NCBI RefSeq assembly: GCF_004346265.1
Contig: NZ_SMAP01000003.1
Coordinates: 155,636 to 219,635 of the forward strand
Length of the DNA: 64,000 nt
DNA from: Thermomonas haemolytica
GTDB taxonomy: Bacteria; Pseudomonadota; Gammaproteobacteria; Xanthomonadales; Xanthomonadaceae
Direction of reading: 5' to 3'
How positions within the stretch are numbered: position 1 is the stretch's first letter; each line of letters begins with the position of its first letter. Below are positions 32,308 through 37,320 of the stretch, one piece after another. The notes below the pieces were generated by a model. It saw only the letters and a program-made list of their open reading frames with translations, was not told the DNA's origin and ran no database searches. The position numbers and the translations under genes are program-made.

Positions 32308-32334
32308 CCCTGCCCGGGAACCCCCCGGGCAGGG
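32308..32334 (+). terminator. GC hairpin after rpoC, without T-run
   Basis: CCCTGCCCGGG pairs perfectly with CCCGGGCAGGG around a five-base loop (AACCC). No T-run follows; instead the -35 box of the str promoter begins two bases downstream. It may stabilise the rpoC message or block read-through only partly. Confidence 0.4.
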
Positions 32335-32364
32335 CTTGCGCCGAGCCCGGCTAGCGTGTATGCT
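32332..32364 (+). promoter_or_regulatory. str operon promoter with inverted repeat over the -35
   Basis: TTGCGC at 32336-32341 and TATGCT at 32359-32364 are 17 bases apart. GGGCT (32332-32336) and AGCCC (32344-32348) form an inverted repeat across the -35. The S10 promoter has the same TTGCGC box preceded by AGGGC, also inside an inverted repeat, which strongly suggests a shared control mode. Confidence 0.65.
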
Positions 32365-32402
32365 TTCGCGGCTTTTGATGGCCTTGCGCCATCCAGATCA
32401 CC

Positions 32403-32431
32403 AAATGAGGTCGCAGGACGCGCCTCGTGTT
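32403..32431 (+). promoter_or_regulatory. Conserved leader element, copy in the str leader
   Basis: A 29-base block that starts 39 bases after the last base of the -10. It matches the block at 37293-37320 except for one extra C and one C/T change. It folds as GAGGT, bulged C, GC paired with GCGCCTC, leaving an AGGAC loop. Hairpins presenting GGA in the loop are the type bound by CsrA/RsmA; whether that or another factor recognises it is unknown. Confidence 0.55.
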
Positions 32432-32466
32432 GGGTCCAGGACGGACGGGATCGCAGATCAATCACG

Positions 32467-32497
32467 GCCTGCCGCCTGTGCGGCGGGCGTGGTTTTT
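32467..32497 (+). terminator. Terminator-like hairpin 1 in the str leader
   Basis: GCCTGCCGC (32467-32475) pairs with GCGGCGGGC (32480-32488) over nine bp including one wobble, loop CTGT. GTGG and then five T (32493-32497) follow. It lies downstream of the str promoter, so it could attenuate str transcription or stop read-through from rpoC. Confidence 0.5.
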
Positions 32498-32500
32498 CGA

Positions 32501-32550
32501 CATGGCTGCGTTTGACCGCAAGGTCCTGCGCTAGCCGTGCTTTTTGTTTT
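32501..32550 (+). terminator. Terminator-like hairpin 2 in the str leader
   Basis: CATGGCTGCG (32501-32510) pairs with CGCTAGCCGTG (32529-32539) with one bulged T. Inside it GACC/GGTC closes a GCAA tetraloop (32514-32525). CTTTTTGTTTT follows at 32540-32550. This is the strongest intrinsic-terminator shape in the leader, 75 bases before rpsL. Confidence 0.55.
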
Positions 32551-32625
32551 GGCCGGCCGGCTTGCGCAAGCATCCGGCTGCATTTGTCTCCATCAGGGCC
32601 CCGTGCCCGCCAATTGAGCCCCGAA

Positions 32626-33556: not shown

Positions 33557-33687
33557 TCCCGGCGGGACTGCGGGTGCGGCGGTGTCCGTCGCTCCGCGCC
33601 GCGGCCCCGGACGGGCCGCGACATCCCGGATGCCGCCGCGAGGCGGCCTTCGGTCATTCCGAAATCCGAAATCATTGAGAGGCTCCC

Positions 33688-35811
33688 GTGGCCCGTTCCA
33701 CTCCCATCGAGCGTTACCGCAACTTCGGCATCATGGCCCACATCGATGCCGGCAAGACCACCACGTCCGAGCGCATCCTGTTCTACACCGGCAAGAGCCA
33801 CAAGATCGGCGAAGTGCATGATGGCGCGGCCACCATGGACTGGATGGAGCAGGAGCAGGAGCGTGGCATCACGATCCAGTCCGCCGCCACCACCGCGTTC
33901 TGGAAGGGGATGGACAAGACCTTCCCCGAGCATCGCTTCAACATCATCGACACCCCCGGGCACGTGGACTTCACCATCGAGGTCGAGCGCTCGCTGCGCG
34001 TGCTCGACGGCGCGGTGTTCGTGCTGTGCGCGGTCGGCGGCGTGCAGCCGCAGTCGGAGACCGTGTGGCGCCAGGCCAACAAGTACCACGTGCCGCGCAT
34101 CGCGTTCGTCAACAAGATGGACCGCACCGGCGCGAACTTCTACAAGGTGCGCGACCAGCTGAAGGCGCGCCTGGGCGCGGTGCCGGTGCCGATGCAGGTG
34201 CCGATCGGCGCCGAGGACAGCTTCGAGGGCGTGATCGACCTGCTGAAGATGAAGGCGATCCATTGGGACGCCGCCTCGCAAGGGCTGAACTTCGAGTACC
34301 GCGACATTCCGGCCGAGCTGAAGGCGAAGGCCGAGGAAGAGCGCGCGTTCATGGTGGAGTCGGCGGCCGAGGCCTCCGAGGAGCTGATGAACAAGTACCT
34401 CGAGGAAGGCGACCTGTCCGAGGCCGAGATCATCGCGGGGCTGCGCGAGCGCACCCTGAAGACCGAGATCGTGCCGATGTTCTGTGGCTCCGCGTTCAAG
34501 AACAAGGGCGTGCAGGCCATGCTGGATGGCGTGATCAACCTGCTGCCGTCGCCGGTGGACGTGCCGCCGGTGAAGGGCGTGGACGTGGATGACGAGACCA
34601 AGGAGCTGCGCCGCGAGTCCAGCGACAAGGCGCCGTTCTCGGCCCTGGCGTTCAAGATCATGACCGACCCGTTCGTGGGGTCGCTGACCTTCTTCCGCGT
34701 CTATTCCGGCACGCTCAGTGCTGGCGACCAGGTGCTGAACTCGGTCAAGGGCAAGAAGGAGCGCATCGGCCGCCTGCTGCAGATGCATTCCAACCAGCGC
34801 GACGAGATCAAGGAAGTGCTGGCCGGCGACATCGCGGCGGCGGTGGGCCTGAAGGATGTGACGACCGGCGACACCCTGTGCGCCATCGACGCCCCGATCG
34901 TCCTCGAGCGCATGAGCTTCCCGGAGCCGGTGATCTCGATGGCGGTCGAACCGAAGACCAAGTCGGACCAGGAGAAGATGGGCAACGCCCTGAGCCGCCT
35001 GGCGCAGGAAGACCCCAGCTTCCGCGTGCGTACCGACGAGGAGTCCGGCCAGACCATCATCGCCGGCATGGGTGAGCTGCACCTGGACATCATCGTCGAC
35101 CGCATGAAGCGCGAGTTCGGCGTGGAGGCCAACGTCGGCAAGCCGCAGGTGGCGTACCGCGAGACCATCCGCAAGTCCGACGTGAAGAGCGATTACAAGC
35201 ACGCGAAGCAGTCGGGCGGTAAGGGCCAGTACGGCCACGTGGTGATCGAGCTGTCGCCGATGACCGCCGAAGACAGAGCGAACCCGGACGTCAAGAACGA
35301 CTTCCTGTTCATCAACGAGATCACCGGTGGCGTGATTCCGAAGGAATTCATCCCGGCGGTCGAGAAGGGCATTCGCGAAACCATCACCAGCGGCCCGCTG
35401 GCCGGCTATCCGGTGGTGGGCGTCAAGGTGAAGCTGGTGTTCGGCTCGTACCACGACGTCGACTCGTCGGAAATGGCGTTCAAGCTCGCCGCGTCGATGG
35501 CCTTCAAGGAAGGCTTCCGCAAGGCCGACCCGGTCCTGCTGGAGCCGATCATGAAGGTCGAGATCGTCAGCCCGGAGGACTACCTGGGCGACGTGATGGG
35601 CGACGTGAGCCGCCGTCGCGGCGTGCTCCAGGGCCAGGACGACAGCCCCTCGGGCAAGATCATCAACGCGATGATCCCGCTGGGCGAGATGTTCGGCTAC
35701 GCCACGGCGCTGCGTTCGATGACCCAGGGTCGCGCGACCTTCACGATGGAGTTCGACCACTACGAGGAAGCGCCGAGCAACATCGCCGAGGCGGTCATCA
35801 AGAAGTCGTAA
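33688..35811 (+). CDS. fusA: Elongation factor G
   Basis: 707-residue EF-G, the translocase of protein synthesis. G-motifs: [19 protein letters not shown], the switch [11 protein letters not shown] and [10 protein letters not shown]; domain IV and V sequences ([14 protein letters not shown] and [15 protein letters not shown]) are intact. GAGAGG lies shortly before the ATG. Unlike the adjacent tuf, it uses the genome's usual ACC/GCC-rich codons. It is followed by 93 bases that contain an unusually A+T-rich stretch before tuf. Confidence 0.99.
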
Positions 35812-35904
35812 GGATCGTCGTCCGGTGCCGGGAGCCGCAGCGCGCTTCCGGCGACCGGGCACGAATCCCCAATTTCCAATCCCAAAATTTTGGAGTTTCA
35901 AACC
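35812..35904 (+). promoter_or_regulatory. fusA-tuf spacer with A+T-rich leader and palindrome
   Basis: The first half is G+C-rich; bases about 35870-35902 are strikingly A/T-rich for this genome. A perfect 12-base palindrome CCAAAATTTTGG (35882-35893) overlaps the start of the ribosome-binding GGAG at 35892-35895, nine bases before the tuf ATG. The palindrome could fold over or expose that site. Confidence 0.45.
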
Positions 35905-37095
35905 ATGGCTAAGGGTAAGTTCGAGCGCACCAAGCCCCACGTGAACGTGGGTACGATCGGTCACGTGGACCACGGCAAGACGACGCTGACGGCGGCGCTG
36001 ACGAAGGTGGGCGCGGAGCGTTTCGGCGGTGAGTTCAAGGCGTACGACGCGATCGACGCGGCGCCGGAAGAGAAGGCGCGCGGCATCACGATCTCGACCG
36101 CGCACGTGGAGTACGAGAGCCCGACGCGCCACTACGCGCACGTGGACTGCCCCGGCCACGCCGACTACGTGAAGAACATGATCACGGGTGCGGCGCAGAT
36201 GGACGGCGCGATCCTGGTGTGCTCGGCGGCGGACGGCCCGATGCCGCAGACCCGCGAGCACATTCTGCTGTCGCGCCAGGTGGGCGTGCCGTACATCGTG
36301 GTCTACCTGAACAAGGCGGACATGGTGGACGACAAGGAGCTGCTGGAGCTGGTGGAGATGGAAGTCCGCGAGCTGCTGAGCAAGTACGACTTCCCGGGCG
36401 ATGACACCCCGATCATTGCGGGTTCGGCGCGCCTGGCGCTGGAAGGCGACCAGTCGGAGATCGGCGTGCCGTCGATCATCAAGCTGGTGGACGCGCTGGA
36501 CACTTGGATCCCGGAGCCGGAGCGCGCGATCGACAAGCCGTTCCTGATGCCGGTGGAAGACGTGTTCTCGATTTCGGGCCGCGGCACCGTGGTGACCGGG
36601 CGCATCGAGCGCGGCGTGATCAAGGTGGGCGACGAAGTCGAGATCGTGGGCATTCGTCCGACCCAGAAGACGACCGTGACCGGCGTGGAGATGTTCCGCA
36701 AGCTGCTGGACCAGGGCCAGGCGGGCGACAACGCGGGTCTGCTGCTGCGCGGCACCAAGCGTGACGAGGTGGAGCGCGGCCAGGTGCTGTGCAAGCCGGG
36801 TTCGATCACCCCGCACACCGAGTTCGAGGCGGAGGTGTACGTGCTGTCGAAGGACGAGGGTGGCCGCCACACGCCGTTCTTCAAGGGTTACCGCCCGCAG
36901 TTCTACTTCCGCACGACCGACATCACGGGTGCGGTGGAGCTGCCGGAAGGCGTCGAGATGGTGATGCCGGGCGACAACGTGAAGATGAAGGTGACGCTGA
37001 TCAACCCGGTGGCGATGGACGAAGGCCTGCGCTTCGCGATCCGCGAGGGCGGCCGCACCGTCGGCGCCGGCGTGGTGTCCAAGATCCTCAAGTAA
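35905..37095 (+). CDS. tuf: Elongation factor Tu (copy 2, str operon)
   Basis: 396-residue EF-Tu, the last gene of the str operon (tufA position). The in-frame ATG at 35890 would add five residues (MEFQT) not found in copy 1; the ATG at 35905 with GGAG nine bases upstream is the right start. The coding sequence is nearly identical to 18575-19765, and the flanks are unrelated, so the match ends at the gene borders. The only protein difference seen is Leu for Ile at residue 395. A CCGCGCGC stem with TTCG loop (37105-37124) follows without a T-run. Confidence 0.99.
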
Positions 37096-37217
37096 TGCAA
37101 GGCCCCGCGCGCTTCGGCGCGCGGCGGGTCCGGGTGCCAACCCGCGCATGTCGGGGTCATCCGGGGTGTCCGGCCCACCGGTTCCAGGTGGACGCGGGTG
37201 CGATGGAAAAGGTGGAA

Positions 37218-37254
37218 CCAGGGCTTGCGCAGCCCTGGGCTCCTCCGTTAGAAT
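37218..37254 (+). promoter_or_regulatory. S10 operon promoter with inverted repeat over the -35
   Basis: TTGCGC at 37225-37230 and TAGAAT at 37249-37254 are 18 bases apart. An inverted repeat, CCAGGGCT (37218-37225) and AGCCCTGG (37231-37238), is centred on the -35, so a protein bound there would touch polymerase contacts. Both the box and its AGGGC prefix recur at the str promoter. Confidence 0.68.
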
Positions 37255-37292
37255 GCAAGACCCTCGCGTGATGTGAGTTGCCGAGGGGAGCG

Positions 37293-37320
37293 AAATGAGG
37301 TGCAGGATGCGCCTCGTGTT
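37293..37320 (+). promoter_or_regulatory. Conserved leader element, copy in the S10 leader
   Basis: A 28-base block starting 39 bases after the last -10 base, the same distance as in the str leader. GAGGTGC pairs with GCGCCTC over seven bp and leaves an AGGAT loop. GCAGGATGC resembles the core of CsrA/RsmA target hairpins. Compare 32403-32431. Confidence 0.55.

Follow-up and report, generated by a model that had tools for sequence, protein, structure and literature searches.

A tandem GGA-loop hairpin element in the rpsL and rpsJ leaders of Thermomonas haemolytica and its relatives: a candidate RsmA/CsrA-binding RNA module

The leaders of rpsL (S12) and rpsJ (S10), the first genes of the str and S10 operons, carry two copies of one element in the DNA analysed here, a window of 64,000 nucleotides (nt) from Thermomonas haemolytica (contig NZ_SMAP01000003.1, positions 155,636 to 219,635 of the forward strand) in which rpoC, rpsL, rpsG, fusA, tuf and rpsJ are named by NCBIfam models. 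The element consists of two tandem hairpins, H1 followed by H2, with GGA in each loop and, judged from comparison of its copies, selection acts on an RNA. We lean towards reading it as a tandem RsmA/CsrA-binding RNA module, whichever outcome binding may have, with the weight towards titration of the protein. RsmA itself is probably the ligand; titration linked to transcription of the RNA polymerase and ribosomal supercluster, as the main outcome, would take up about half of that probability.

A preliminary description of the window had drawn attention to a nearly identical block in the two leaders, at 32403-32431 and 37293-37320, with one indel and one C/T change and a stem of seven base pairs. 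The sequence and its folding bear this out, but the element is larger than the block, whose stem extends outwards and is followed directly by a second hairpin with a GGA loop. On the rpsL side (forward strand, as for every feature below) H1 occupies 32401-32433, with up to 13 pairs, one bulged base and the loop AGGAC at 32415-32419, while H2, supported by folding and covariation, occupies 32434-32446 (GUCC-AGGAC-GGAC), its GGA at 32439-32441 lying 23 nt past that of H1. On the rpsJ side H1 is found at 37291-37322, with the outer stem CGAA/UUCG and the loop AGGAU at 37304-37308, and H2 at 37322-37346, where GACA-GGGAGA-UGUC (37326-37339) is set within GCCA/UGGC and the GGA falls 26 nt past that of H1. 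The general layout of H1 is CRAAAW-GARG, variable pairs, the loop, and an opposite strand with one bulged base before UU; the outer stem is CCAA/UUGG on the rpsL side of the window's genus and CGAA/UUCG in most remaining copies. An upstream peptide encoded in the block was considered and rejected, as loop lengths shift by single bases and several copies have no ATG. A long stem (AAGGCCTCGTCCG...CGGCGGGGCCTT) with no T run follows H2 in the rpsJ leader, at 37347-37394, and by eye is kept in the genus.

The element is not a chance occurrence in this genome (2,586,957 bases in 23 contigs), since the block pattern, with a gap of one to three bases, matches twice and its reversed control not at all, and a covariance model finds two strong copies, at 68 and 54.5 bits, with the next match at 16.3. 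A search of this kind had been proposed in the preliminary description; the model used here, built from 35 aligned copies, returns the same two places, and across the order it matches 166 of 299 genomes, with one or two copies each and three in three genomes. Class-wide, at E up to 0.001, six of 369 genomes match and five of these belong to the order; the sole match outside it (L315, in G557) overlaps a long open frame and looks like chance, as do extra hits in genomes G261 and G246 (L311 and L310), which also overlap long open frames. Third copies in G221 and G278 were traced to a different, dispersed cloverleaf. This cloverleaf-like element (L328-L352) has one to six matches per genome in seven of the eight genomes of genus g7 searched (G030, G173, G206, G216, G221, G278 and G325); it comprises two hairpins, CAGGATG and the CsrA-type CACATGGATG, within an outer stem whose sequence varies by copy, mostly still paired, and it could be either an RsmA-binding RNA present in several copies or a mobile repeat.

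Leaders were compared in 60 genomes, the window's included, of which 50 yielded rpsL and 55 rpsJ; all 50 rpsL leaders and 50 of the 55 rpsJ leaders were examined (those of G028, which is partial, G040, G041, G052 and G056 being left out), and eight of the rpsJ leaders span at most 250 nt. The element is recognisable by sequence in 35 rpsL and 32 rpsJ leaders. It is present in family f1 in 27 of 29 rpsL and 30 of 31 rpsJ leaders, the one rpsJ leader that lacks it (G035) having 184 nt, and in family f12 in both rpsL and both rpsJ leaders; families f2, f3 and f5 together have it in six of six rpsL leaders and in none of six rpsJ leaders. The remaining families show it in none of 13 rpsL and none of 11 rpsJ leaders, six of the latter being at most 250 nt long; a scan for windows that fold with two GGA loops gave one rpsL window (G043) and one rpsJ window (G054) among them, and one further window in G048 of f3. 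A pattern scan of named genomes gave at least 119 stretches, and the 80 listed fall mostly in Lysobacterales (Stenotrophomonas, Lysobacter, Luteimonas, Pseudoxanthomonas, Dyella, Rhodanobacter, Dokdonella and others); a few are filed as Syntrophomonadaceae, Bhargavaea, Rhizobium or unplaced Gammaproteobacteria. Of the 80, 27 precede rpsJ and 20 precede rpsL, by a protein motif within 700 nt downstream, and 33 are unassigned. The simplest history would be an ancestral copy at the rpoC-rpsL junction and a second one, at tuf-rpsJ, gained in an ancestor of f1 and f12.

Covariation was assessed in the alignment made for the covariance model, 35 copies chosen from 58 distinct ones. In H1, 96.7% of the cells are paired, compared with 89.9% in shuffles, and 23 cells are doubly changed, compared with a shuffled mean of 4.7 and with no shuffle of 500 reaching 23; five of its pairs are invariant. 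Among the 19 CCAA-type copies of the rpsL side, H1 is nearly invariant and it is H2 that varies, with double changes in three of its four pairs and 100% of its cells paired. Over the whole structure these 19 copies have 10 doubly changed cells compared with 2.4 in shuffles (reached by 0 of 500), with no surplus of further pair types, and in both alignments slid controls score far under the actual structure.

Of 67 windows containing the element, 54 fold with two GGA loops and 65 with at least one; among 797 controls taken from these leaders, one window has two such loops and 71 have one. The spacing from GGA to GGA is 25-26 nt in all 32 rpsJ-side copies and 22-25 nt in 33 of the 35 rpsL-side copies (22-26 nt in 65 of 67), and in the two exceptions the next GGA lies beyond H2. 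The core C-A-(n)-GGA-(n)-G of H1 is found in 76 of the 80 named matches listed, for which the pattern required the GGA and not the remainder, and the exact six-base loop occurs in records of Dyella, Rhodanobacter and Luteibacter, for example. Most copies of H1 were gathered by a pattern demanding GGA, which makes the H1 count partly circular; the fair tests, free of this, are H2 and those junctions in which the stems have been replaced.

Six rpsL junctions have stems largely or wholly unlike H1 and H2 (G033, G034, G274, G258, G183 and G144), and four of them, G033, G034, G274 and G258, keep two GGA hairpins. G033 and G034 are the two f1 genomes whose rpsL leaders have no recognisable element; both have windows with two GGA loops, six each, compared with five of 124 control segments, and G033 retains a GCAGGGA core. 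In G183 one of two scored GGA hairpins is accepted, the other overlapping the end of rpoC, and G144 has by eye one GGA hairpin (GCGGC-AAGGAA-GCCGC), missed by the scan. Among 13 more rpsL junctions, nine have windows with two GGA loops (G274, G216, G173, G211, G229, G260, G279, G258 and G183), and G154 by eye retains the core within an altered outer stem, CCGGA/UCCGG. The earlier suggestion of selection on RNA structure is thus borne out by the covariation, the phylogenetic spread and the survival of GGA loops through stem replacement, and the same observations support RsmA/CsrA as a candidate binder, as had also been suggested.

The RsmA/CsrA reading is in keeping with loops of the CAGGAnG and CAnGGAnG types, the pairing of the sites and the retention of GGA through stem turnover. 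The consensus reported for CsrA is a GGA in a hairpin loop, an ANGGAN hexaloop and, from systematic evolution of ligands by exponential enrichment (SELEX), RUACARGGAUGU (PMC7652899). The element has GGA in hairpin loops, a loop near to ANGGAN closed by C-G and two sites at a spacing suited to one dimer, and the cognate protein gene is available, with CsrA (PF02599) encoded in 55 of the 60 genomes and in one copy in that of the window.

The transcriptional context of the element differs between the window's genus and the rest of the order. In the window each copy has its own predicted upstream promoter, P1. The rpsL-side P1 (32336-32364), which follows the open frame of rpoC (28052-32293), has its -35, TTGCGC, at 32336-32341, a spacer of 17 and its -10, TATGCT, at 32359-32364, and rpsL lies at 32626-33000 (NCBIfam TIGR00981). 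The P1 of the S10 operon (37225-37254), beyond the end of tuf at 37095 (NCBIfam), has TTGCGC at 37225-37230, a spacer of 18 and TAGAAT at 37249-37254, and rpsJ lies at 37545-37856 (NCBIfam NF001861 and TIGR01049). Neither promoter was recovered by a strict sigma-70 scan of the window. The identical -35 and the equal distance to the block, which begins at the 39th base after each -10, had both been described and both hold here. The distance holds also across the genus: a -10 is recognised in 13 of 19 rpsL-side leaders (window included), all 13 with 37-40 nt to the block, and in 18 of 22 rpsJ-side leaders (window included), 17 of them with 38-40 nt, so that 30 of the 31 recognised cases, of 41 genus leaders, have 37-40 nt. 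The common -35 does not, being loose on the rpsL side of the genus (cttgcg, ctggcg, cttgtc, ctgcac).

In 31 of 35 rpsL leaders, 15 of 19 in the genus and all 16 others, the element is followed by a second, sigma-70-like promoter, P2, of the TTGACR-N18-TATACT type with 8 or more of the 12 consensus bases; the window has a degenerate copy at 32512-32541, with TTGACC and with CGTGCT in the -10 position, which is intact in most relatives. At rpsJ, P2 is recognised in none of the 22 genus leaders and in six of 10 others. Transcripts from the rpsL P2 would therefore not carry the element, and transcript starts downstream of the block, given in the preliminary description as a finding that would tell against it, are thus partly to be expected for rpsL, as judged from promoter sequence. 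In the order as a whole rpoC precedes the element, as does tuf in f1 and f12, and the end of the element is 115-255 nt upstream of the start codon. The phrase "promoter-plus-leader module" used earlier therefore suits the window's genus and some relatives but not the order, where an RNA attached to the ends of rpoBC and str is a better description of the element than a leader belonging to the operon that follows. The rpsJ copy in the window's genus is, however, likely to be a leader.

Between element and rpsL the window has a predicted intrinsic terminator at 32463-32498, with a stem at 32467-32488 or longer followed by GTGGTTTTTC and four overlapping hits where 0.3 are expected. The RNA from P1 to this terminator (32371-32498) is predicted to fold into a 5' hairpin (GATGGC...GCCATC, 32377-32393), which by eye has a counterpart in many congeners, then a junction that GAUC/GAUC closes, and the terminator; H1 and H2 stand in the junction, the GGA loops of both being open. 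The rpsL-side copy, with a promoter of its own before it and the terminator after it, could thus give an RsmX/Y/Z-like RNA of about 130 nt. A hairpin with a T run lies between element and P2 in seven of 19 genus rpsL leaders, window included, and in none of 16 others; one of the seven, in G020, looks like a downstream attenuator. At rpsJ seven of 22 genus leaders, the window not among them, and nine of 10 others have a hairpin with a T run after the element. Outside the genus the two operons have a second module in common, for example in L_G030 and J_G030, in which P2 is followed by C(C/T)GTCT and by an attenuator-like structure, a GGCAGRCC hairpin ending in a T run. The rpsJ product, NusE/S10, is a boxA-binding factor, and a boxA-like motif (CGCTCTTT) lies upstream of rpsJ at 37517-37524. 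Such a motif is found 24-33 nt before rpsJ in 31 of 31 f1 leaders, in one of 19 others, in none of 50 rpsL leaders and in six of 6200 shuffled segments; boxA before rpsJ has been reported in three genera (PMC5725501), and autoregulation of S10 through it is possible.

Which alternatives might account for such an element? The chief rival of titration is stabilisation or repression in cis, in which RsmA or another protein would bind a site in the 5' leader and so act on the S10 and str mRNAs together. In the window's genus P1 would start both transcripts only shortly before the element, no P2 is recognised on the rpsJ side there, and RsmA is reported to stabilise the hrpG and hrpD mRNAs through leader sites, hrpG in X. 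citri (PMC3937308). We nevertheless consider it unlikely, since P2 transcripts of rpsL would lack the element and its distance from the start codon is too great for the loops to block ribosome binding directly. The position of P2 tells also against an autogenous leader, shared by both operons, for a ribosomal protein of one of them (S7, S12, S10 or L4). Ribosomal protein leaders are common at such places (PMC7247131), and at rpsJ in the genus the element is likely to be on the regulated transcript; at rpsL it precedes P2, the two operons have no ribosomal protein gene in common, and its stems are replaced while the loop GGA is kept, which makes this explanation very improbable.

Stem replacement with retention of GGA, and the presence of GGA in both loops, would also be left unexplained if the element served RNA processing, through cleavage of an RNase III type at the rpoBC, str and S10 junctions, or antitermination past an attenuator behind P2. 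Its intercistronic position, the strong conservation of its bulged lower stem and the hairpin with a T run after P2 in 15 of 16 rpsL-side leaders outside the genus are what such roles would lead one to expect; in the window's genus, however, the element follows its own promoter, and we regard these roles as improbable. Scarcely credible is a DNA operator at the -35 regions that would co-regulate both promoters. The preliminary description had placed each -35 in an inverted repeat and had suggested co-ordination by a DNA-binding protein. Many P1 promoters do have TTGC in the -35 position or close to it and, in tests against 100 shuffles per leader, the rpsJ repeat of the window (37218-37238) is reached by none and a significant repeat with the -35 in its loop recurs in 10 of 21 genus rpsJ-side leaders. 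The rpsL repeat of the window is matched by 41 of its 100 shuffles, and just one of 16 genus leaders on that side (G020) has a significant repeat. The repeat thus stands for rpsJ alone, a shared operator is rejected, and the arms, which differ in sequence between species, fit a hairpin better; this may be the 3'-end hairpin of the tuf RNA, overlapped by P1.

Several observations weigh against the RsmA/CsrA reading itself, besides the partial circularity of the H1 count. The shuffles ignore the relatedness of the sequences, and the number of H1 pairs changed on both sides, four, is equalled by 80 of 500 of them. Many loops elsewhere have five nucleotides, not the ideal six; H2 has no GGA loop in G264 and has GGG instead in L_G026 and L_G032; and the rpsJ-side H2 is absent when the leader is folded at full length (284 nt) to its minimum energy. 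The scan for two GGA loops is negative in four of the 13 further rpsL junctions (G144, G154, G182 and G264), and G258 and G183 are positive only in longer windows, the 80- and 100-nt windows having no separate control. In H1 the lower stem with its bulge (CGAAAW...GUnUUCG) is more conserved than RsmA needs, and another ligand or an RNase may act on it; H1 is also longer than most SELEX hairpins, for which no more than four contiguous pairs are reported (PMC7652899). An RNA with two sites would be a weak sponge, and a terminator after the rpsL-side element is confined to a minority of the genus. No Rsm or Csr family of Rfam was found at E up to 10 in 19 rpsL-side relatives. Finally, RsmU, an RNA that sequesters RsmA in Xanthomonas campestris, is reported still to bind RsmA and to act with all four of its GGAs replaced (PMC7694677), so that GGA is not the whole story in these bacteria.

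If the element is nonetheless a tandem RsmA/CsrA-binding module, the GGA loops of H1 and H2, 22-26 nt apart, would be bound together by one RsmA dimer, or by two. Its RNA would be made whenever the RNA polymerase and ribosomal supercluster is transcribed, in much of the order as the tail of the rpoBC and tuf transcripts and in the window's genus from the dedicated P1 promoters. The proposed transcript ends follow from promoter and terminator motifs: on the rpsL side of the window the P1 RNA would end at the terminator after about 130 nt as a small RNA like RsmX/Y/Z, and on the rpsJ side the S10 mRNA would retain the module in its long 5' leader. Most probably RsmA would be bound, and titrated in proportion to transcription of ribosome genes, with possible cis effects on the stability of the S10 transcript in the window's genome and of rpoC and tuf transcripts elsewhere.

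RsmA is a global regulator in these bacteria. In its widest form, the proposal is that most Xanthomonadales/Lysobacterales have a pair of RsmA-antagonist RNAs, at rpoC-rpsL and tuf-rpsJ, which have so far gone unrecognised and which slave free RsmA to ribosome synthesis instead of, or besides, a signal of the Gac type. We put this forward tentatively and think it rather doubtful as a whole. Were it true, it would provide a direct wire from growth rate to RsmA through an RNA physically tied to the genes for RNA polymerase and ribosomal proteins, in parallel with what has been proposed for the RrA, RrB and RrF RNAs of Escherichia coli.

Comparison with known systems places the element apart from the recognised families. 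The small RNAs RsmX, RsmY, RsmZ, CsrB and CsrC are arrays of GGA hairpins; in the window's genome the element would resemble them, with a predicted promoter, hairpins and terminator (sequence features at 32336-32498) and an RNA of about 130 nt, and it differs in having only two sites and in its location in the ribosomal supercluster. By the Rfam test it does not belong with them (RsmX and RsmZ form part of clan CL00106), as neither copy attains the gathering score of any Rfam family; sub-threshold scores for Rsm families in the window (13.3 bits compared with 44, and 16.6 with 56) do not recur in 19 relatives and are not used as evidence. We found no description of the element in the open-licence literature searched, a search that did not extend to subscription papers and supplements. 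A predicted RNA element upstream of rpsL, with Xanthomonas among the examples, is the rpsL-leader attenuator of Naville and Gautheret (PMC2965389), which differs in being a terminator/antiterminator; it is probably the hairpin with a T run behind P2 and would thus lie downstream of our element.

Within the order, RsmU is the only RsmA-sequestering RNA that we found reported in the open-licence literature, and its authors found no homologue of CsrB or RsmX/Y/Z in Xanthomonas (PMC7694677). It is an RsmA-binding RNA cut from the end of an mRNA, as our candidate would be; unlike our candidate, RsmU derives from the 3' untranslated region of comEA, at another locus, and is reported in Xanthomonas only (PMC7694677). 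The leader of flaA in Campylobacter jejuni is reported to titrate CsrA through two ANGGA hexaloops 21 nt apart, and so offers a similar pair of adjacent hairpins with ANGGA loops in an abundant mRNA (PMC4894983). Its second site covers the ribosome-binding site, whereas the element has over 100 nt between either of its sites and the start codon downstream. In genomic setting the element resembles RrA, RrB and RrF, which come from rrn operons of E. coli and are reported to bind CsrA; they too have GGA in two predicted hairpin loops and form part of a ribosomal operon, so that their level tracks ribosome synthesis (PMC8144298). Those operons encode rRNA, and belong to another order, and binding has been shown there where here it is predicted from sequence. 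By analogy with these RNAs and with the flaA leader, the element may work in the same way, as an RsmA-binding RNA whose supply follows the transcription of the genes that carry it.

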